Under the pieces are notes generated by a model. It worked only from the letters and a program-made list of their open reading frames with translations, was not told the origin of the DNA and searched no databases. Shown one piece after another: positions 5,585 through 53,230 of a stretch of 64,000 nucleotides of DNA (positions are counted from its first letter, which is position 1; each line of letters opens with the position of its first letter). The stretch comes from Pusillimonas sp. (GTDB taxonomy: Bacteria > Pseudomonadota > Gammaproteobacteria > Burkholderiales > Burkholderiaceae_B): positions 62,001-126,000 of the forward strand of contig NZ_JAJUFE010000002.1 of the NCBI RefSeq assembly GCF_029263785.1, given 5' to 3'. A program made the translations under genes and the position numbers.

Positions 5585-8500
5585 TCAGCGCAGGACACTG
5601 GCCAGACTGCGCCGTACATCTTCTTCGTCACGGCCACTGCGTCTGACGTAATCCGCCAGCTGATCCGGTCCGATATGTCCCACGTTGAAATATTGTGATT
5701 TCGGATGACTGAAGTAAAAGCCCGACACGCTGGATGCGGGGTACATGGCGTAACCTTCGGTCAGCTGCATCCCGATTTCCTCGGGCTTCAGATACGTGAA
5801 CATGTCCTTTTTTACCACGTGCTCGGGACACGCCGGGTAGCCCGGAGCGGGACGAATACCCTGATATTTTTCGGCGATCAGGTCTTCGTTGTCCAGTGCC
5901 TCGTCAGACGCATATCCCCAAAGATCGCGTCGCACCCTGGCGTGCAGGCACTCGGCGAACCCTTCCGCGAAGCGGTCTGCCAGGGCCTTGAGCATGATGC
6001 TTGAGTAGTCGTCGCCGGCATCCAGAAACTCTTTGTCGCGTACTTCGATTCCCAGGCCACCCGTGACAGCGAACATGCCGATGTAGTCCATGACCCCGCT
6101 ATCCCTGGGGGCAATGTAGTCAGCCAGACACTTATTGTCCACGCCTTCACGCTTGACCGTTTGCTGACGTACATTGCGCCAGGTAAACAGCACCTCGGAA
6201 CGTGATTCATCACGATAAATTTCGATGTCTTCGTCATTGACCGTGTTGGCAGGATAGAACGCCACCACCCCGCTTGCCGTCAGCCAGCGACCGTCGATGA
6301 TCTTGCGCAACATCGCCTGGCCTTCCTCGAACAGTTTGACGGCCTGCTCGCCAACAATCTTGTCCTTGAGAATCGCCGGGTACTGGCCAAAGAGGCTCCA
6401 GGTCTGAAAAAAAGGCGTCCAGTCAATGTACTTTGCGATTTCTGCAAGATCGTAATTGGCGAATACACGCCGACCGATAAACTTTGGACGCGGAGGCTCG
6501 TAGCTGCTCCAATCGATGGCAGGACGCCCCGCACGCGCCTCTTCGAGCGTGATCAGCGGAGTCTCCTTCCGGTTCGCATGGCGCCTGCGCACCGTTTCGT
6601 ACTCTTCGGCCACTTCAGCCAGATAGGTATCGCGTGAATCAGACATCAGGTTCGTGGCCACGCCTACAGAGCGACTGGCATCCGGCACATAAATGACCGG
6701 ACCCTGGTACTGGGGTGCTATCTTTACGGCCGTATGCACCCGGCTGGTGGTGGCGCCCCCTACCAGCAGGGGCATATTGCGGCTGCGGAAATATTCGTCA
6801 CGCTGCATCTCTGAGGCCACGTACGCCATTTCTTCGAGGCTGGGAGTGATCAACCCCGAAAGTCCGATCATGTCGGCCTTTTCCTCTTTGGCCTTGGCCA
6901 GAATGTCGGCACAGGGCACCATTACGCCCATGTTCACGACTTCGAAGTTATTGCACTGTAATACGACCGTGACAATATTCTTGCCAATATCGTGAACATC
7001 ACCTTTGACGGTGGCAATAACGATCTTTCCCTTAGGCCGCACGTCACCGCCGGCTGCGGCAATCTGGCGTTTTTCTTCTTCAATGAAAGGCACGAGGTGA
7101 CCAACGGCCTGCTTCATGACCCGGGCTGACTTGACCACCTGCGGCAAGAACATCTTGCCTGCGCCGAACAGGTCGCCGACGACATTCATGCCGTCCATCA
7201 AGGGACCTTCGATGACCTGAATCGGCCGGCCGCCTGCATCCTCGATCTTCTTCCTGACCTCTTCGGTGTCCTCGACAATGTAAGTGGTAATTCCATTGAC
7301 CAGCGCATGGGTGAGCCGCTGCTCTACCGGCTGCTCACGCCAGGTCAGATCTTCTTCCTTGCGCATGCCTGTGCCACGCACTGTTTCAGCAAACTCAACC
7401 AGACGTTCGGTATTGCTGCGCGCGTCATTGGGATCGGTGCGACCCACCGGCTCGGCTCGGTCAAGCACGACGTCCTCGACAAGGTCGCGCAAGTGCTTGT
7501 CGAGATCCTGGTACACGCCCAACTGGCCGGCATTGACGATACCCATCGTCAGACCTTGCTGAATGGCGTAGTACAAAAATACCGTGTGAATCGCCTCGCG
7601 CACCGGTTCGTTGCCGCGGAACGAGAAGCTGACGTTGGAAATGCCCCCCGACACCCGTGCATGCGGCAGATTCCGCGTAATCCAGCCGACGGCATCGATG
7701 AAGTCCATCGCGTAGTGATTGTGTTCGTCAATGCCTGTGGCAATGGCGAACACGTTGGGGTCAAAAATGATGTCTTCCGGCGGAAAGCCCACTTCCTCGA
7801 CCAACAGCTTGTACGCCTTGCCGCAGATCTCCTTGCGACGCTCGAACGAATCGGCCTGGCCTTGCTCATCAAACGCCATGACCACAACCGCCGCACCATA
7901 CTTGCGGCACAGTCTGGCATGCTCAAGGAAGGGTTCCACTCCTTCTTTCATGGAAATCGAATTAACCACGGGCTTGCCCTGAATACAGCGCAGCCCGGTC
8001 TCGATGACTTCCCATTTGGAGCTGTCGATCATGATGGGCACTCGTGCAATGTCCGGCTCGGACGCAACCAGGTTCAGGAACCTGTGCATGCACGCTGCCG
8101 AGTCCAGCATGGCCTCATCCATATTGATGTCGATGATCTGCGCGCCGTTTTCCACCTGCTGACGCGCCACGGCCAGCGCCTCTTCGTACTTTTCTTCCCG
8201 GATCAGGCGCAGGAACATCTTGCTGCCCGTCACGTTGGTGCGTTCGCCGACGTTGATAAACAATGAATCCGCGTCGAAGTTCAATGCCTCGAGGCCCGAC
8301 AGGCGCGTACGCACTGGAATGACCGGCACTTCCCGCACCGGCAGGTCGGCCGTCTTGGCGGCAATGGCCCTGATGTGTTCAGGCGTCGTACCACAACATC
8401 CCCCCACCATATTGACCAGGCCTGCCCGAGCGAACTCTTCCAGCAACGAAGACGTGTCTTCCGGTGTTTCGTCAAAGCCGGTCTCTGCCATCGGATTGGG

Positions 8501-9358
8501 CAAGCCGGCGTTGGGATACACGCAAATATAGGTGTCGCAGATTTTCGAAAGTTCGGCCACATAGGGGCGCATCAAAGCGGCACCCAGCGCACAGTTAAGA
8601 CCGATGGTGACAGGGCGCGCATGTCGCACGGAATTCCAGAACGCTTCAACGGTCTGCCCTGAAAGTATTCGTCCAGAGGCGTCTGTCACGGTTCCCGAAA
8701 TCATGACGGGCAGACGCACGCCCCTTTCCTCGAACACAGTTTCAATGGCAAAGATCGCCGCCTTCGCATTCAGGGTATCGAAGATCGTTTCGAGCAGGAC
8801 GATATCAATTCCGCCATCCAGCAGCCCGTTCAGCTGTTCGGCGTACGCCACACGCAGCTCGTCGAAGGTGACGTTACGAGCTGCGGGATCATTGACATCA
8901 GGGGAAATTGACGCTGTCTTGGGTTGTGGCCCGAGGGCACCCGCTACAAAGCGCGGACGCTCCGGAGTGCTGAACTCGTCGCAAGCCTGGCGCGCCAGGC
9001 GAGCCGACTCCAGATTCAGTTCATACGCGATGTGGGCCAGACCATAATCACCCTGAGCAATGGAGGTGGCCCCAAAGGTGTTCGTCTCGATAACATCCGC
9101 ACCCGCATCGAGATACTGTCGGTGGATGTTCAATATGAGGTCGGGCCGCACCAATGACAGCAGTTCGTTGTCACCCTTCACATCCTTGGGATGATCGGCA
9201 AAACGTTCGCCGCGAAAATCCAGCTCGGTGAGCTTTTCCTGCTGGATCATGGTGCCCATGGCGCCATCCAGTATCAACATGCGCGATGCCAAAAGGCGCA
9301 CAAACTCGGCGCCGCGAGTGTACGAGGACAGGGGGTACGGCAAAGCTGGATAAGACAC
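5585..9358 (-). CDS. metH: Cobalamin-dependent methionine synthase
   Basis: MetH transfers a methyl group from methyltetrahydrofolate to homocysteine via methylcobalamin. All modules are present in 1257 residues. The homocysteine domain opens with [12 protein letters not shown] (about 28-39) and holds the zinc cysteines in GLNCALG and GGCCGTT. The pterin-binding domain contains [12 protein letters not shown]. The B12 domain has the [11 protein letters not shown] motif, whose His ligates cobalt, near residue 775. The C-terminal AdoMet reactivation domain carries [12 protein letters not shown]. The chosen start is a GTG with a TTTAGG stretch about 12 bases upstream. A cobalamin riboswitch and B12-uptake genes lie divergently beyond its leader, so B12 supply and use are encoded side by side. 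Confidence 0.98.
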
Positions 9359-9624: not shown

Positions 9625-9780
9625 GCCTGAAAGTGCTTTCGGTTCATGACGCCATTCCCGGCTCATGATCTGCGAAAGTTCAATGGGAAACAGACCGCCG
9701 TCGCTTTTTTTTGACCGCGAAAACTGTGCTGCCCCCGCAACGGTAATGTGCTCATGCACCAGCCCGACACCAGCCTTCAC
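9625..9780 (+). promoter_or_regulatory. Cobalamin (AdoCbl) riboswitch
   Basis: The conserved core GCTGCCCCCGCAACGGTAA is present at 9728-9746 and differs from the textbook B12-box only in the ACGGTAA variant. The upstream GGGAAA element is at 9685-9690, and the 3' closing element AGCCCGACACCAGCC is at 9761-9775, in the expected order and spacing. It precedes btuB on the same strand, where high cobalamin is expected to switch off receptor synthesis. The 5' border is approximate because the P1 stem is not well resolved. An unusual run of eight T lies inside the variable peripheral region at about 9705-9712. Confidence 0.9.
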
Positions 9781-9845
9781 GAGCCCATTGCCTTGCCATG
9801 TTCGCAACCCGTCATCAGCAAGCCAAGCAATGGTTTTTTCCTTAC

Positions 9846-9865
9846 GGCGTGCGGGGACGCACGCC
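9846..9865 (+). promoter_or_regulatory. Hairpin in the btuB leader, probable expression platform
   Basis: A perfect 7-bp stem (GGCGTGC 9846-9852, GCACGCC 9859-9865, loop GGGGAC) sits between the cobalamin riboswitch and the btuB ATG at 9883. No T-run follows, so it is not a classic terminator. Its closeness to the start codon, where no good Shine-Dalgarno sequence is visible, suggests control of ribosome access. This is inferred from position. Confidence 0.5.
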
Positions 9866-9882
9866 TTGCTCTGAAACCCATC

Positions 9883-11697
9883 ATGACTATTTTCATCCGG
9901 GCCGGCGCCTGCGCTGCCCTTGCCCTCTGCCTCGCCCCTTCCTACGCGCAAGATTCCACCCAACTCGAACGCATTGTCGTCACGCCAGGCCGCATTGCCC
10001 AGTCACAAGCCAGCGCCCTGGGAGACGTCACCGTAATCAGCCGCGAAGAACTCTCTATGGCTGGCCAAAACAATCTCGCGCAGATCGTTTCTCGCCATTC
10101 GGGGATTCAATACGATGATTATGGTGGCCCGCAGACATTGAACAGCGTGTTCGTACGCGGGGCCAATTCGAACCAGACACTGGTGCTTGTCGATGGTGTC
10201 CGCATCAATAGTTCGATCGGGGGCTACCCGAACTGGAACGCCCTGGACCCTGCCATGATCGAGCGGGTTGAGATCCTTCGGGGGGCAGCCAGCAGCCTGT
10301 ACGGTTCCGACGCCATCGGCGGCGTCATCAATATCATCACCCGACAGGCCGAAGGCGACCAGCCGTTCAGTGCTTTTGCAAACTTTGGGGCGGGCTCCTA
10401 CGGTACCTTCAAATCAAGCACCGGCATTTCCGGCGCGCAAGACGGATGGAACTATGCATTTTCAGCCGCGATGGCCGGCAGCGACGGCTACAGTGCCACC
10501 AACAGAACTGAGCGTTTCGGCTATTTTCATCCGGATCATGATGGCTACCATCAACACAGCATCTCCGGGTCGCTGGGCTACCGGTGGCGTCCCGGTCACC
10601 ATGTGAATCTCTCAGCCTACAACAGCTATATCCATGGCGACTATGACGAATTCCAGACCGACCCCGCTTTGACCGTCACGCGCCAGCAGGCCTACACGCT
10701 GACAAGCACCCATGACATCACTGACAGGTGGCAAAGCATTCTGCGACTTGGCCTGACAAAGGAAACCGGACAGTCACTGACCCCGCACTGGTCAAATTTA
10801 TATTCCAGCCTGCAACGAAGCTACACCTGGCAGAACAATCTGCAACTAACGCAAAATCAGGACGTATCGCTGATACTGGAACGCCTGGAAGAACGGATCC
10901 GAAGTTCCGACCTGTTCGATCAGGACGCGCGCAATACAAACTCGGGCAATCTCGTCTGGCGCGGACAATTCACCCGCCACCACCTGCAGGCCAGCCTGCG
11001 CAACGACGCCATTTCCGGCCACGGCAGCCAGACCACAGGCTCGCTGGCCTACCGCTACGATATTGCCCCCGGCTGGCAGCTTGGGGTGGCCGGCAACACT
11101 GGCTTCAAGATGCCCACCATGAGAGACCTGTACGGCCCCTGGAGCGCCAATCCAAACCTCCAGCCCGAGAAGTCGCGCAATATTGAAGCGAGTCTGAAGT
11201 ACACCTCGAAGGCCTACGATCTGAGCCTGACCGCCTACCGGAACAAGGTGCGCAATCTTATAAACGCTGACGAGAACTGGATACTTCAAAACATCGACTC
11301 GGCGACGCTGCGCGGCCTGAGCCTTACCGCAGAACGCCATTGGAAGGACACGACAATCAGTGGCGGCTACGACTATCTCGACGCCCGCAACGACCAGACC
11401 GGCCTTCAGCTTAGCCGCCGCGCGAAACATGTGTACCGCGTAGGCGCACATCATCGCATCGGCCAACTCGAACTGGGCGCCCAGTACCAGTTCACCGGAA
11501 ACCGCTACGATGACTCCACGAATACCGTCCGGCTGGGCGGCTACGGCTTGCTGGATCTGACAGCGTCGTATGCCTTCACCTCCGCCGTCGCTGTACAGCT
11601 GCGCTGGAACAACGTTTTCGACAAGGACTACGCGAATGCGCACGGCTACAACATGCCGGGGTCAAATGTCTTCGTAAACCTTTCTGTGAAGATGTAG
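9883..11697 (+). CDS. btuB: TonB-dependent vitamin B12 receptor
   Basis: BtuB is an outer-membrane gated barrel that imports cobalamin using TonB energy. The 604-residue product has a signal peptide ending near SYAQ (about 22), a TonB box (ERIVVT, about 29-34), and a plug domain with the typical VFVRGANSNQTLVLVDGVRIN and ERVEILRGAASSLYGSDAIGGVINIIT segments. A barrel follows, ending in an aromatic-poor but typical VNLSVKM terminus. The start at 9883 was preferred to a longer in-frame start at 9748 because the latter lies inside the riboswitch and would hide the signal peptide. The riboswitch directly upstream supports a B12 ligand over another siderophore-like one. btuF follows 28 bases later. 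Confidence 0.94.
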   Translation: MTIFIRAGACAALALCLAPSYAQDSTQLERIVVTPGRIAQSQASALGDVTVISREELSMAGQNNLAQIVSRHSGIQYDDYGGPQTLNSVFVRGANSNQTLVLVDGVRINSSIGGYPNWNALDPAMIERVEILRGAASSLYGSDAIGGVINIITRQAEGDQPFSAFANFGAGSYGTFKSSTGISGAQDGWNYAFSAAMAGSDGYSATNRTERFGYFHPDHDGYHQHSISGSLGYRWRPGHHVNLSAYNSYIHGDYDEFQTDPALTVTRQQAYTLTSTHDITDRWQSILRLGLTKETGQSLTPHWSNLYSSLQRSYTWQNNLQLTQNQDVSLILERLEERIRSSDLFDQDARNTNSGNLVWRGQFTRHHLQASLRNDAISGHGSQTTGSLAYRYDIAPGWQLGVAGNTGFKMPTMRDLYGPWSANPNLQPEKSRNIEASLKYTSKAYDLSLTAYRNKVRNLINADENWILQNIDSATLRGLSLTAERHWKDTTISGGYDYLDARNDQTGLQLSRRAKHVYRVGAHHRIGQLELGAQYQFTGNRYDDSTNTVRLGGYGLLDLTASYAFTSAVAVQLRWNNVFDKDYANAHGYNMPGSNVFVNLSVKM

Positions 11698-11725: not shown

Positions 11726-12673
11726 ATGTCATGCCAAGCTCATGCACAGCCCCTGATCAATGCATCGCTTTTGGCATCCTGGGGCGCCCGACTCGGCCTG
11801 CACCCGATACGGCACTGGATAATGGCTTTTATCCTGCTGTTCGCCTCAGGCTCCGCTCCGGCCTCCGCCCCCGAGCGAGTAGTCACTCTGGCCCCGCACA
11901 TCACAGAACTGCTGTACGCCGCGGGTGCCGGCCACACTTTGGTCGGCACGGTCATCAGCAGTGACTACCCGGAGTCAGTCAAAACCTTGCCAAAGGTAGG
12001 AGACGGGGCCGCCAGCATCAACATCGAAACGCTCATCAGTCTTCATCCTGACGTCGTTCTCGCCTGGCAGGCTTCGGGGGCCGTGGCCGCTGCCACCCCT
12101 TTACTCAAAAGCGTCGACATTCCCATTACCCTGATTGCCCCCGAAAGAATGGATGACATTCCCGACGCCATCGAACAACTGGGCACGCTTTTGGACACAC
12201 AAGCCGCAGCAAGCTCGCGGGCATCAAACATACGAGAAACCTTGGCGGCCTTGCGCAGCCAATATGCCCGGAAATCGCCCGTTTCTGTATACATCGAAAT
12301 CGGCGCTGCTCCGCTTTACGCGGTTGGCCGCGACACGCTTCTGAACGACGCGCTGAGCACCTGCGGCGGCTTCAACATTTTCCGGGACAGCAAGCTCCCG
12401 GCCCTTCCCATCAGCCCGGAACGCGTGCTTCACCAACGTCCTCAGCTTATCTTGATAGCCACGACGAACCCTGACCAGTTGAACGAGGCTCAAGCACGTT
12501 GGGGGAGACTCGGTCTTGGCCCGACCCATACGAGGATTTACGGCATAAACCCCGATGCTCTCTTCCGCCCAGGACCTCGGCTGGTTGACGCCGCCGTCGC
12601 TATCTGCCGATATCTTGAAAAGGCGCGAGAAACGTTTGGCGCGATGGATACCGCGACGGAGGCGAATTTATGA
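11726..12673 (+). CDS. btuF: Periplasmic cobalamin-binding protein
   Basis: The product is a cluster-A-type solute-binding protein (BtuF/FhuD fold). After a signal peptide ending near ASGSAPASA, the mature part starts RVVTLAPHITELLYAAGAG, the standard BtuF opening, followed by VGTVISSDYPESVKTLPKVGD. The ATG at 11726 has a GGAG Shine-Dalgarno sequence 10 bases upstream but gives a long n-region. The ATG at 11822 gives a compact signal peptide but no visible ribosome site; either is possible. It lies directly behind btuB and under the same riboswitch. The permease and ATPase partners BtuC and BtuD are not adjacent; the next sequence is a repeat element. Confidence 0.88.
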   Translation: MSCQAHAQPLINASLLASWGARLGLHPIRHWIMAFILLFASGSAPASAPERVVTLAPHITELLYAAGAGHTLVGTVISSDYPESVKTLPKVGDGAASINIETLISLHPDVVLAWQASGAVAAATPLLKSVDIPITLIAPERMDDIPDAIEQLGTLLDTQAAASSRASNIRETLAALRSQYARKSPVSVYIEIGAAPLYAVGRDTLLNDALSTCGGFNIFRDSKLPALPISPERVLHQRPQLILIATTNPDQLNEAQARWGRLGLGPTHTRIYGINPDALFRPGPRLVDAAVAICRYLEKARETFGAMDTATEANL

Positions 12674-12693
12674 TCTGTCAGGGTTTTTAAGGC

Positions 12694-12909
12694 GCCTGGA
12701 CGGGGGCTGCCCTGTAAAAATGGGCGCATCGTGCGGTCCGGCTGCGCCGGACTTCCCGGATCTGCCTCGTCCGGCGGGCGTCGGCCGAACTCAACCTCGC
12801 TGCTACGCAGCTCGGGATTCGGCAGACGGCCGCCGTCTTCCCCGCCTCCCTTCGTCAGCATCCGGCGCACGCTGGACGCCCTTTTTTACAGGGCAGCCCC
12901 CGTCCAGGC
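12694..12909. repeat. Palindromic repeat unit 1 (MITE-like, 216 bp)
   Basis: Two 33-bp arms (12694-12726 and 12877-12909) are inverted copies with one mismatch; 27 consecutive bases from the outer ends match perfectly. The 150-bp interior is GC-rich and holds smaller hairpins, including a perfect 7-bp stem with a TGC loop (GTCCGGC...GCCGGAC, 12736-12752) and GCTGC-TAC-GCAGC. No transposase is encoded. The layout fits a non-autonomous mobile element or a dispersed intergenic palindrome. It starts about 20 bases after the btuF stop, so the outer arms could also terminate transcription, since the left arm runs into TAAAAA and the right one contains TTTTTT. Confidence 0.75.
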
Positions 12910-13012
12910 TACATAATCTCCAGTGCGACCAGAACACATACAGGCGTAGGAAATGCACCCCTGGGATACAAAGTGCCGATCACCTTCAGCCCACCACCAC
13001 CCCCCAGTCTCA
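12910..13012. other. Spacer between the two palindromic units
   Basis: About 100 bases with no gene. A C-rich tract with CCACCACCACCCCCC at about 12991-13005 abuts the second repeat unit. No promoter or ribosome site stands out. Confidence 0.4.
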
Positions 13013-13231
13013 GGCCCTGGGACGTCTGGTGTGTTGCGCGCCGTCCGACCACGCCGCGCAGCCGGAGCGTTTGGGGAGGCAAGCCTCGCGCATGTTTGAG
13101 CGGCACGATTGTCGGACCACAGGTCCGACGCCGCGAGTTCGCGAGGCGCCCCAAACGTTTCGACTGCAAGGGGAGCCCGGCAACGCCGGGCCGCAGGGAG
13201 CGGCGCGCAACGCACCTGACGTCCCAGGGCC
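13013..13231. repeat. Palindromic repeat unit 2 (MITE-like, 219 bp)
   Basis: Two 31-bp arms (13013-13043 and 13201-13231) are inverted copies with two mismatches. Inside is a second nested inverted repeat (CGTTTGGGG 13068-13076 with CCCCAAACG 13149-13157). There are also two perfect short hairpins: GTCGGACC-ACA-GGTCCGAC (13111-13129) and GCCCGGC-AAC-GCCGGGC (13175-13191). The sequence differs from unit 1, but size, arm length and internal three-base-loop hairpins are strikingly alike. No coding capacity is evident; the open frame that crosses both units is a GC artefact. Confidence 0.75.
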
Positions 13232-13426
13232 TTTAAGAACCCATGATGGCCAATCACACGCAAATGACAGATCATCCCGGTTGCCGGCGCCATTCCTGCA
13301 CAAACCTCACCAAATGCATTATTCTTTTATATTCATCGCAGCAACCCCTTCCAAGACGGCAATCCGGTCACTCGCACCCTTTACCGCAAGTGCACCTCCC
13401 GTCACCGAATGCCAAATCTCTCGTAA
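13232..13426. other. thiG upstream region
   Basis: This 195-bp stretch must hold the thiG promoter. An AT-rich patch (about 13317-13336, ATTATTCTTTTATATTCATC) is the best candidate for a -10 region, but no clean -35 is seen. No TPP riboswitch core (CTGAGA with the ACCTGA partner) is present. None of the three forward frames encodes a ThiS-like peptide ending in GG. Confidence 0.4.
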
Positions 13427-14221
13427 ATGACTCAATCAGACACCTTCAAGCTCGCCGGACGCGAATTCACTTCACGCCTGCTCGTCGGCACCGGAAAATA
13501 CAAAGACTTCCAGGAAACCCGCGCCGCCATCGACGCCAGCGGTGCTCAGATCATTACAGTGGCAATCCGCCGGACCAACATCGGCCAAGATCCCGACCAG
13601 CCAAGCCTGCTCGACTACCTTCCCCCGTCCCAGTTCACCATCCTGCCCAACACCGCCGGCTGCTACACCGCCGTTGACGCCGTACGCACCTTGCGACTGG
13701 CCCGAGAGCTGCTCGATGGACATGATCTCGTCAAGCTCGAAGTCCTTGGCGACCAGAACAACCTCTTCCCCAATATGCCCGAAACATTGGAAGCCGCCAA
13801 AACACTGGTCAAGGACGGCTTCAAGGTCATGGTCTATTGTGCCGATGACCCCATTCAGTGCCGCATGCTGGAAGACATCGGCTGCGTCGCCATCATGCCC
13901 CTGGCCTCGCTGATCGGTTCCGGCATGGGCATCCTCAACCCCTGGAATCTGCGTCTGATCATCGACCAGTCCAGCGTTCCCGTGCTTGTTGACGCCGGCG
14001 TTGGTACGGCCTCCGATGCTGCCGTTGCCATGGAACTGGGTTGTGACGGCGTGCTGATGAACAGTGCCATCGCCGGTGCCCGCAATCCCGTTCTCATGGC
14101 CAGTGCCATGAAGAAAGCCGTCCAGGCCGGACGTGAGGCATTCCTTGCAGGCCGCATGCCCCGCAAGTTTTACACCGCCGATCCAAGCTCGCCAACCGAA
14201 GGTCTTATTCAGCCAAAATAG
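13427..14221 (+). CDS. thiG: Thiazole synthase
   Basis: ThiG builds the thiazole phosphate of thiamine from deoxyxylulose phosphate, dehydroglycine and ThiS-thiocarboxylate. The 264-residue TIM barrel shows [17 protein letters not shown] at the start, [20 protein letters not shown], the Schiff-base lysine in LVKLEVLGD (about 103), [12 protein letters not shown] for phosphate binding, and [22 protein letters not shown]. It is followed 43 bases later by thiD. The sulfur carrier ThiS, usually encoded just upstream in related genomes, is not here. Confidence 0.97.
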
Positions 14222-51666: not shown

Positions 51667-52719
51667 ATGATGGCAGCGCACCCCCTGCGTACCGTCGTAC
51701 TGGGTGCCGGCAGCTGGGGCACGGCGCTGGCGGCACTGGCCAGCGCCCAGTCCGATACCATGCTGTGGGCAAGAGATGATTCGGTCGCGCACGAAGTCAG
51801 CACCAGGCATACCAACGAGCGGTATCTTCCGGGCATACCGCTGCCCGAGACTTTGCGCTGCACCCACGATTTTGACCAAGCAGTGAGTCATGCCGGCTCC
51901 TCCGACGGCTCCTTGGGTCTCATCATCCTGGGGGTGCCCGTAGCGGGCCTGGCCGATACCTGCCATCGCCTGGCCCGGGCGCTTGCCAGTCGGCCCGGAC
52001 CACTTCCTGCCGTGGTCTGGACCTGCAAGGGCTTTGATCACGACACGGCGCAATTGCCCCACGAGATTGCTTCCTCCCACCTCGGAAGTCTTGCGGCATT
52101 GGGTGTGCTTTCTGGTCCATCATTTGCCCACGAAGTCGCACGTGGCCTGCCAGTGGCGCTTACCATCGCCAGTCAATCCAGCGACGTCATCGAGGCCACC
52201 ACGACGGCGCTGCATGGCCGCATGGCGCGTATTTACGCCAGTTCCGATGTTGTAGGCGTCGAAGTAGGCGGCGCACTCAAAAACGTCATTGCCATTGCTT
52301 GCGGCATTTCGGACGGCCTGGGCCTTGGAGCCAATGCACGCGCAGCGCTCATCACACGGGGCCTGGCTGAAATCCAGCGCATGGGTGTCGCTCTGGGCGG
52401 ACTGCCCGACACCTTCTACGGCCTGACGGGCATGGGAGACCTCGTCCTGACCGCCACCGGCGATCTTTCCCGAAATCGTCAGGTGGGAATGGCAATCGGG
52501 CAGGGACAAACCCTGGACTCGATTCTGGCAAAGGGAATTACGGCCGAAGGGGTGCGCTGCGCCAACTCGGCTCTGGCCCTGGGCCGCAAACACAACATCG
52601 ATGTACCGATCACCGAAGCCGTGTGCAATGTATTGTTTGAAGGCGTTTCGCCTCAGCAGGCCGTGATCGACCTGCTTTCACGCGAAGCACGCCCCGAACA
52701 AGACACTGACAGCAATTGA
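51667..52719 (+). CDS. gpsA: Glycerol-3-phosphate dehydrogenase [NAD(P)+]
   Basis: GpsA makes sn-glycerol 3-phosphate for phospholipid synthesis. The 350-residue protein has the NAD(P) loop [16 protein letters not shown] (about 9-24), [62 protein letters not shown] and [13 protein letters not shown]. The last residues (EQDTDSN) come from the first copy of a 22-bp tandem repeat, and the stop codon spans the copy junction. It ends the rhodanese-grxC-secB operon. No clear ribosome site precedes the ATG. Confidence 0.96.
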
Positions 52720-52761
52720 ACAAGACACTGGCAGCAATTAAACAAGACACTGGCAACAATT
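52696..52761. repeat. Three tandem 22-bp repeats at the gpsA/trmL junction
   Basis: Copies at 52696-52717, 52718-52739 and 52740-52761 share ACAAGACACTG followed by GCAATT or a close variant; copy 2 differs from copies 1 and 3 at one and two positions. The gpsA TGA (52717-52719) spans the copy 1/2 border, and the trmL stop (52760-52762, minus strand) uses the end of copy 3. The array looks like recent slippage duplication. Confidence 0.9.
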
Positions 52762-53230
52762 AAACGCCGCCAAGGTAGCCCTGCTGCCGCCACGCTTCGA
52801 ACACCATCACGGCCACCGCATTGGAAAGGTTCAAGCTGCGCTGGTCAGGCAGCATGGGTAGGCGCAATCGTTGATCCGGGGCAAACAGCTCCAGTTGCTC
52901 CGCCGACAAGCCGGCCGTCTCGCGACCAAAGACAAACACGTCCCCAGCTTCGAAGCGCTGGCCACCCAGGCAGGTGCCGGCGCGCGTTGTCATGGCAAAG
53001 CACCGCCCGGCCGAAGCCCCGGTTGCGCGCAGGGCCGAGCCCAGATCATCATGCACGTTGACTCGGGCCCACTCGTGATAGTCGAGCCCGGCGCGTTTCA
53101 GCTTGCTGTCTTCAAGCTCAAAGCCCAGCGGTCGCACCAGATGCAAGGTACAGCCCGTATTGGCGGCCAGCCGAATCACATTCCCCGTGTTGGGCGGAAT
53201 TTCGGGAGACACCAGCACAATATGAAACAT
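52760..53230 (-). CDS. trmL: tRNA (cytidine/uridine-34 2'-O)-methyltransferase
   Basis: TrmL methylates the wobble ribose of tRNA-Leu. The 156-residue SPOUT protein has the short family form: FHIVLVSPEIPPNTGNVIRLAANTGCTLHLVRPLGF at the start, DVFVFGRETAGLS (knot loop) and RLPMLPDQRSLNLSNAVAVMVFEAWRQ at the end. It converges with gpsA, and its stop codon lies in the last copy of the 22-bp tandem repeat. comF follows upstream by 10 bases on the same strand. Confidence 0.95.
   Translation of the reverse strand: MFHIVLVSPEIPPNTGNVIRLAANTGCTLHLVRPLGFELEDSKLKRAGLDYHEWARVNVHDDLGSALRATGASAGRCFAMTTRAGTCLGGQRFEAGDVFVFGRETAGLSAEQLELFAPDQRLRLPMLPDQRSLNLSNAVAVMVFEAWRQQGYLGGV

Follow-up and report, generated by a model that had tools for sequence, protein, structure and literature searches.

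The locus in front of thiG

The 64,000-nucleotide stretch of Pusillimonas sp. DNA analysed here, in the following called the window, holds an intergenic gap bordered upstream by a periplasmic-binding-protein gene (PF01497, stop at 12673) and downstream by thiG (PF05690, start at 13427). Two large palindromes lie in this gap, and the composite formed by them and their end motifs begins 7 bp past the stop codon of the upstream gene (Table 1). A periplasmic-binding-protein gene follows the frame of a TonB-dependent receptor (9748-11697), and a cobalamin riboswitch (RF00174, 9633-9792, 34.5 bits) overlaps the first start predicted for that frame; riboswitch, receptor and binding protein are probably a cobalamin uptake set. 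Next to this set lies a long opposite-strand frame (5585-9358), which we take to resemble metH. Elsewhere in the window, a 22-bp unit is tandemly repeated in 3.1 copies at 52697-52765.

Table 1. Positions of the composite and its parts in the window, with the evidence for each assignment.
Feature	Position	Strand	Evidence and remarks
Composite element	12681..13242		End motif (outward), unit 1 (-), spacer of about 100 nt, unit 2 (+), end motif (outward); sequence, divergent-pair count, comparable P. caeni composites
Left end motif GGGTTTTTAAGG (on the minus strand CCTTAAAAACCC)	12681..12692	-	Equals the 3' end of unit 1; variant of AAGAAC
Unit 1, type B palindromic unit, 216 nt	12694..12909	-	Fold z -11.6; model R1 match E 1.3e-16, unit 1 itself being among the 24 rows of R1; 90%-identical copy on contig C54
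Unit 1 3' side hairpin GTCCGGC-NNN-GCCGGAC	12736..12752	-	Sequence, fold; similar side hairpins recur in other units
Unit 1 core, apical hairpin flanked by TGCCGA and GAGTT	12788..12825	-	Sequence, type B alignment, R1 match
Inter-unit spacer	12910..13011		Sequence
Unit 2, type A palindromic unit, 221 nt	13012..13232	+	Fold z -11.1; model R2 match E 4.7e-19, unit 2 itself being among the 31 rows of R2; related copies at contigs C41 and C38
5' bulge AGGCAA separating stem A from stem B, for the most part conserved among type A units	13077..13082	+	Type A alignment
Unit 2 core, TGTTTGA - apical hairpin - GAGTT	13093..13139	+	Type A alignment, core finder, pairing analysis
Unit 2 3' side hairpin GCCCGGC-AAC-GCCGGGC	13175..13191	+	Sequence, fold
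Right end motif CCTTTAAGAACCC	13230..13242	+	Sequence, flank count, P. caeni copy ends

A repeat search of the window returned arms of 32 nt for unit 2 (13012-13043 and 13201-13232, 94% complementary with two mismatches) and arms of 59 nt for unit 1 (12687-12745 and 12858-12916, 78% complementary). Folded as RNA, as had been proposed in an initial annotation made from the sequence alone, each unit is far more stable than its shuffled counterparts: position 13012 pairs with 13232 in unit 2 (221 nt, -158.5 kcal/mol, z = -11.1) and 12694 with 12909 in unit 1 (216 nt, -145.2 kcal/mol, z = -11.6), with 0 of 200 dinucleotide shuffles folding as well as unit 2 and likewise for unit 1. The initial description of unit 2 as a 219-bp palindrome with 31-bp arms and two mismatches is confirmed and extended by one base at each end (221 nt, 32-bp arms); equally, folding bears out the 216-bp unit 1 at a distance of about 100 bp. 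Internal perfect hairpins with three-base loops are present in both units, as GTCGGACC-ACA-GGTCCGAC and GCCCGGC-AAC-GCCGGGC in unit 2 and as GTCCGGC-TGC-GCCGGAC and GCTGC-TAC-GCAGC in unit 1.

A function of these structures ahead of thiG had also been considered. The sequence immediately before thiG is common to the window, P. caeni and P. noertemannii; no such element was seen in the thiG gap of P. noertemannii, the gap of P. caeni contains only a stem remnant, a short-loop hairpin whose long arms are accompanied by similar end motifs, and no exact empty site was recovered in the comparison of the thiG locus with these two species. As the presence of the element varies at thiG, it is not a fixed part of thiG control, and with copies elsewhere adjoining many genes a thiG-specific role of the composite is not supported. 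The hairpin before thiG in P. caeni (locus L154, around 1150-1290) is apparently an element that lost its core.

A common plan of the two units

Copies of unit 2 (type A, on the plus strand) and of unit 1 (type B, on the minus strand) follow the same plan: stem A is separated from stem B by a 5' bulge, which in type A mostly reads GGCAAG; next come an internal loop of approximately YTGTYYGA / GAGTT and a stem C with apical hairpin, and on the 3' side there is a separate small hairpin. The alignment of type A comprises 31 rows, with two of 33 cores left out as contig-end fragments (L018, L033), and the alignment of type B 24 rows, with one of 24 cores left out (L024, minus strand) and unit 1 added. 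The fold is kept across the aligned copies and the structure is conserved in relatives. Placed side by side, the copies differ in their outer arms, each arm being largely complementary to its own partner. Both units of the window share the inner loop (about TGTYYGA/GAGTT round the apical hairpin) and the 3' side hairpin, and each carries an end motif that faces outward (GGGTTTTTAAGG on the left, CCTTTAAGAACCC on the right); the core loop TGCCGA of unit 1 and of its sister copy on contig C54 is one base shorter than the usual TGTYYGA.

In a search of 701 bases, a type B model built without unit 2 ranks unit 2 directly behind unit 1, at the position and on the strand expected (12.6 bits, E 0.005). 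With the type A model, the minus strand of unit 1 is matched only weakly (9.1 bits, E 0.08), and a spurious match on the wrong plus strand scores slightly higher (9.7 bits); this search by itself would not convince of the kinship of unit 1. With 0 direct-repeat families linking units 1 and 2, the earlier statement that they share no obvious sequence is literally true, although a likeness does exist, which is missed by a direct-repeat search because it is inverted in orientation and mostly structural. These observations fit units 1 and 2 as subtypes of one repeat family in opposite orientation, with types A and B linked through their architecture and the weak cross-model scores.

Polarity, pairing and element ends

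The units possess a polarity. In the Alcaligenaceae, AAGAAC occurs in the 3' flank of 26 of the 66 units with enough flanking sequence, is absent from the other 40 3' flanks, and is found in the 5' flank of a single unit (1/66). In the 42 units from other families, a T-rich tail is present on the 3' side of 17 and on the 5' side of 2, with the reversed pattern also giving 10 on the 3' side, and an A/T-rich inverted repeat is often located 3' of these units. Outside the Alcaligenaceae (L219, L353, L369, L373), units frequently have a T-rich tract plus an A/T-rich hairpin, for example CTTTCTTTTGGTTACTTTTCTTTGG ... AAAGAAAAGT, downstream of them; the window copy carries neither.

Units close to each other are mostly arranged with their 3' ends outward. 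The 233 loci that were not picked as pairs contain 19 close pairs, with the window pair among them: 14 are divergent, 2 are convergent (L028, L057) and 3 have one orientation, giving opposite orientation in 16 of 19; this count allows G-T wobbles and is less specific, its backwards control yielding 14 against 165 matches (142 + 23). The same G-T-tolerant count applied to 25 loci chosen for holding pairs gives 8 of 9 divergent. A first count of units 100-1,000 bp apart, performed like the flank count with a looser stem B and a Watson-Crick stem C still required, found 19 of 21 pairs divergent; 7 of the 21 (L215-L221: 6 divergent, 1 in one orientation) came from pair-selected loci, without which 13 of 14 are divergent. 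A hand count of pairs within 1 kb among the pattern matches listed in the order and class scans finds 17 of 18 to be divergent, the exception in G036 having both units in one orientation. Divergence therefore prevails among close pairs without being universal.

Ends of the element can be read from P. caeni, where related copies with 86-94% identity are found at five loci, three of which (L011, L026, L030) contain whole composites including the spacer. The similarity among these copies ends at or within a few bases of CTTAAGAAC or its variants on the right and near a GTTCTT-containing sequence on the left, and the window composite agrees with these ends, with GGGTTTTTAAGG at 12681 and CCTTTAAGAACCC ending at 13242. 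By-eye inspection of the five P. caeni ends gave no sign of a target-site duplication. To the left of one of these composites (L026, around 1180-1290), near-tandem copies of about 50 bp hold the end motif (TTGTTCTTNA...CCGTCCCTGCG).

Copies and taxonomic spread

Other copies of each unit, a search for which had been suggested at the outset, are found in the own genome and in relatives, so that the outcome named as refuting the initial annotation did not occur. The own genome comprises 2.70 Mb in 94 contigs; there, contig C54 carries a copy 90% identical to unit 1, C10 and C45 carry partial relatives of it, and unit 2 has relatives on C41 and, by covariance model, on C38. Throughout 61 genomes, the own genome and 60 relatives, presence is patchy: unit 2 has matches in 10, unit 1 in 9 and either unit in 13. 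An exact type A pattern recovered 31 stretches from the genome collection, 30 of them in Pusillimonas (noertemannii, caeni), Pollutimonas, Candidimonas, Paralcaligenes, Allopusillimonas and 'Alcaligenaceae bacterium', the named genera all being presumably Alcaligenaceae. The remaining stretch, from Thermus, shows no matching fold and was rejected.

The distribution beyond close relatives was assessed with the core pattern AACTCGCN{4,34}GCTCRRACA, the reverse complement of the core, which matches once or more in 201 of 399 Burkholderiales genomes; four or more matches (up to 24) are present in 66 of the 399 versus 2 for the backwards pattern (hand count). A class sample of 369 genomes contains the pattern in 105, and outside the Burkholderiales at least four matches occur in 14 of 365 genomes, with 1 for the control (hand count). 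Folded loci from 7 of these 14 genomes (G473, G505, G507, G519, G647, G722, G734) show the same plan, as do some genomes with one to three pattern matches (e.g. G451, G550, G556). Seven folded pattern loci (L352, L358, L359, L364, L366-L368) are without the plan, and single pattern matches are therefore partly due to chance. An order-wide model search gave matches in at least 13 of 250 genomes, which is an undercount with 15 candidates scored per genome, some of the weaker matches being without the plan. The family is thus spread over the Burkholderiales and some other Gammaproteobacteria. Long stretches round paired units are alike at different places of one genome (G004, loci L023 and L028) and have short frames in common.

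A plasmid- or phage-borne element has been considered and rejected: the window composite has no match among plasmid or phage records, one composite from genome G324 none among plasmid records, and a structured unit was present in 1 of the 80 listed viral-contig loci that match the core pattern. On a 7.7-kb IMG/VR contig (L272, around 126-160), a single structured unit lies on the minus strand near the contig end, possibly as host sequence at a prophage edge.

Covariation and the folding strand

The stems of the units are conserved in their pairing. In the type A alignment (31 rows, 34 pairs), 94.7% of the cells are paired versus 63.9% after shuffling and 39-43% after sliding; two-sided changes are found in 32 of the 34 pairs, with a covariation score of 0.779 versus 0.192 for shuffled data. 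In the type B alignment (24 rows), 8 of 18 predicted pairs have changed on both sides, the lower number of two-sided changes being explained in part by the higher conservation of the stems beside the core. A core-plus-stem finder returned 123 matches versus 1 in the same loci read backwards, over 789,941 bases of partly overlapping loci, many of them fetched for holding the element; the 123 matches collapse to 98 distinct units. As the finder requires TG, GA and GAGTT, the invariance of these bases in its units is built in, and its demand for a Watson-Crick stem C makes it miss wobble units (L057) and unit 1 itself.

Close copies illustrate how the arms change. Unit 1 and its C54 sister differ by five double changes, four of which are still paired, and four single changes, with 0.59 doubles expected; ten comparisons among the five P. 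caeni copies give 3-6 doubles and 1-6 singles each, with 0.2-0.7 doubles expected. Fourteen non-overlapping pairs of close copies (85.5-94.8% alike) together contain 48 paired double stem changes and 110 one-sided ones, and 25 of the 48 are transversions, which have no route through a G-T wobble. Among close copies, coordinated stem changes exceed what mutations arising independently would produce.

Arms are known to become alike when the template is switched between inverted repeats (PMC7202029; PMC8604942). As template switching between DNA arms can also yield co-varying arms, the covariation demonstrates maintained pairing but does not reveal the process behind it, and by itself is no proof of RNA. 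Stem mismatches are more often G-T than A-C: the 98 units have 76 versus 30, and after reduction to 53 cluster representatives the numbers are 39 and 22 (p 0.04); counted by units, the bias is 19 versus 9 (sign test p 0.087), that is weak after clustering. This bias and the 5'-3' polarity fit one folding strand.

A more speculative reading, which we consider improbable but worth stating, is that this twin-hairpin family of the Gammaproteobacteria might be copied via a single-stranded, self-paired intermediate in which one arm templates the other, whereby the arms would be rewritten in step in each round and the inner loop, as the putative binding site of a helper, would stay fixed. The signs that would point to such self-templated copying are the double stem changes including transversions, and the comparison of unit 1 with its C54 sister with five doubles, four of them paired, against 0.6 expected. 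Palindrome arms that change together matter to anyone who treats covariation alone as proof of a functional RNA.

Interpretation and alternative explanations

On balance, we regard the composite at 12681-13242 as a non-autonomous dispersed repeat built of two divergent palindromic units, with a BIME/REPIN-like layout but units of about 220 nt, and probably bound by a factor. Each unit would act as a single strand of defined orientation that forms a long hairpin with a 5' bulge, a TGTYYGA/GAGTT internal loop under the apical hairpin and a side hairpin. Stem sequences would be free to change while pairing is kept; the inner loop and the side hairpin may constitute the binding site of a trans-acting factor. 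The composite could then spread by copying between its outward end motifs and might settle in the 3' regions of genes, where little harm would be done. Active mobility and the existence of a binding factor are what we infer here, whereas the family itself, its fold, covariation and polarity, the predominance of divergent pairs and the dispersed, patchily present copies are observed; a non-autonomous mobile repeat with giant units, recognised via the inner loop and spread by a helper, is the most economical reading.

The main rival is an RNA function at gene 3' ends, that is a retained 3'-UTR element acting as bidirectional terminator or protector of mRNA 3' ends and kept by selection, with mobility being secondary or past. 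We consider this possible and still clearly less likely than a mobile repeat, with which it may coexist. In its favour, 31 unit contexts, taken from loci of 2,500 bases or more in which both neighbouring genes were called, comprise 18 convergent, 10 tandem and 3 divergent gene arrangements, compared with 8, 18 and 8 for 34 unit-free gaps of 100-1,500 bp from the window and named contigs; on the other hand, ten unit gaps from the window and named contigs are less skewed, with 3 convergent, 5 tandem and 2 divergent ones, and the gene contexts derive from a home-made heuristic gene caller, so that the lean of the units to gene 3' ends is not strong. The short distance of the composite to the upstream stop codon, the G-T bias of the stem mismatches and the T-rich tail or A/T-rich hairpin often found 3' of units in other families agree with such a role. 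The layout of an intrinsic terminator, a GC stem followed by a T run, is however found in neither window unit, no T run lying 3' of either, while 17 of 42 units of other families have a T-rich tail; the region 12500-13450 contains two terminator-like matches against a shuffle mean of 0.9. Equally, the variable presence at thiG is not expected of an essential 3' element.

That two unrelated palindromic families were inserted by chance at one hotspot, as the initial annotation proposed, is already disfavoured and appears quite unlikely. Consistent with unrelated families, no direct repeat connects the units, BLASTN with each unit retrieves mostly different loci, and with the type A model a wrong-strand match scores at least as high as unit 1. 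Against these points stand the architecture, inverted orientation and end motif that both units have in common, and the match of the type B model to unit 2 in its place. Furthermore, the divergent pair is the commonest layout of close units, and therefore one composite can explain both units and a hotspot is not needed.

Even less likely is a REP/RAYT or retron-like system in which a transposase or reverse transcriptase moves the units, despite the resemblance of divergent dimers and of a hairpin with end tag to REPs and REPINs, as far as these are portrayed in the source consulted (PMC3733652). Y1_Tnp (PF01797) is absent from the own genome and occurs in 2 of those 13 genomes, out of 61, that contain a unit match; nor is it enriched where units abound, being present in 9 genomes of a set of 20 with the element and in 10 of a second set of 20 with 0-1 pattern matches (1 match in G391 of this second set). 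Likewise, RVT_1 is present in 8 of the 20 genomes with the element versus 11 of the 20 with 0-1 matches, and was not found in the own genome and 11 more of the 20 with the element. REP transposase and reverse transcriptase are poor candidates for a helper. A shared neighbour gene as helper has also been considered and discarded, as within about 1.5 kb of the fetched loci no common partner gene was found beyond repeats and the genes of a few shared loci.

Chance or an assembly artefact is practically negligible, since, although some copies lie near contig ends, where repeats may disturb the assembly, the fold z values of both units are below -11, the element is conserved in independently assembled genomes, some of them single-contig, and the core finder gave 123 matches versus 1 backwards.

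If the interpretation as a helper-spread mobile repeat is right, its multiplication is not explained by the two helper types tested, and dozens of many-copy genomes together with relatives that have few or no copies constitute a comparative set for finding the helper.

Comparison with known repeats

With REP, BIME and REPIN elements, the family shares intergenic palindromes, a polarity tag, several to many chromosomal copies, dimers in opposite orientation and the non-autonomous character. REPs are described in the portions consulted as elements of 20-40 bp with a GTAG or CGTC tag (PMC3733652). The units of the present family, unlike REPs, are about 220 nt long (216 and 221 nt in the window) instead of short tagged hairpins, carry no GTAG/CGTC tag but the end motif CCTTTAAGAACCC and its variant, possess a conserved inner loop with freely changing arms, and have no link to a Y1 transposase; the dimers in opposite orientation are the trait that agrees. 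A reverse transcriptase, as would be expected of a retron or RT-borne element, was not found in the own genome in a search for RVT_1.

The betaproteobacterial repeat BRE is likewise GC-rich, mostly intergenic and accompanied by signs of mobility, with a length of about 90 bp, a direct tandem arrangement at some loci and one copy within a transcribed sRNA region, according to the sections of the report consulted (Hot et al., 2011, PMC3110155). At some loci BRE forms direct tandems of about 90-bp units with few bases in between; in the present family, 3 of 19 close pairs have one orientation, with core centres 144-532 bp apart in a pair search that covered distances above 100 bp. An overlap with BRE is possible.

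Bordetella belongs to the same bacterial family as the genus of the window. Its stem-loop families Bor-1 to Bor-6 include the intergenic Bor-1 of 117 nt and Bor-2 of 167 nt, as given in the excerpts consulted (Cozzuto et al., 2008, PMC2267715). Being stem-loop repeats as well, they may overlap with the present family; no record titled Bordetella is among the 31 stretches with the exact type A pattern.

Long imperfect intergenic palindromes are also typical of ERIC and MITE-like repeats. To our knowledge, these families are each conserved in sequence along their whole length; unlike them, the present family is conserved at most stem positions in pairing only, not in sequence. As in MITEs, terminal inverted repeats are present in the form of outward ends resembling GTTCTTNA / TNAAGAAC, at or near which the similarity of the P. 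caeni copies stops. The composite is comparable to BIMEs and REPINs in layout, yet with giant units and no link to a Y1 transposase, and BRE and the Bor families may overlap with its family.

A covarying structure with conserved unpaired bases is a feature shared with Rfam RNAs, and no Rfam 15 family scores above its gathering threshold for the element: within the gap, the top two matches reach E 0.2 and 0.83 with scores well short of the gathering values, and none of 16 representative loci has a match at E 0.5 or better. A search of the open literature with words and core sequence strings brought up no recognised description of the family among the matches listed. If the interpretation holds, the family would be a structured repeat absent from Rfam that is spread over the Burkholderiales and further Gammaproteobacteria. 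A candidate RNA named 'Burkholderiales-1', for which the part of the source consulted gives no Rfam number, has been reported (PMC2864571).
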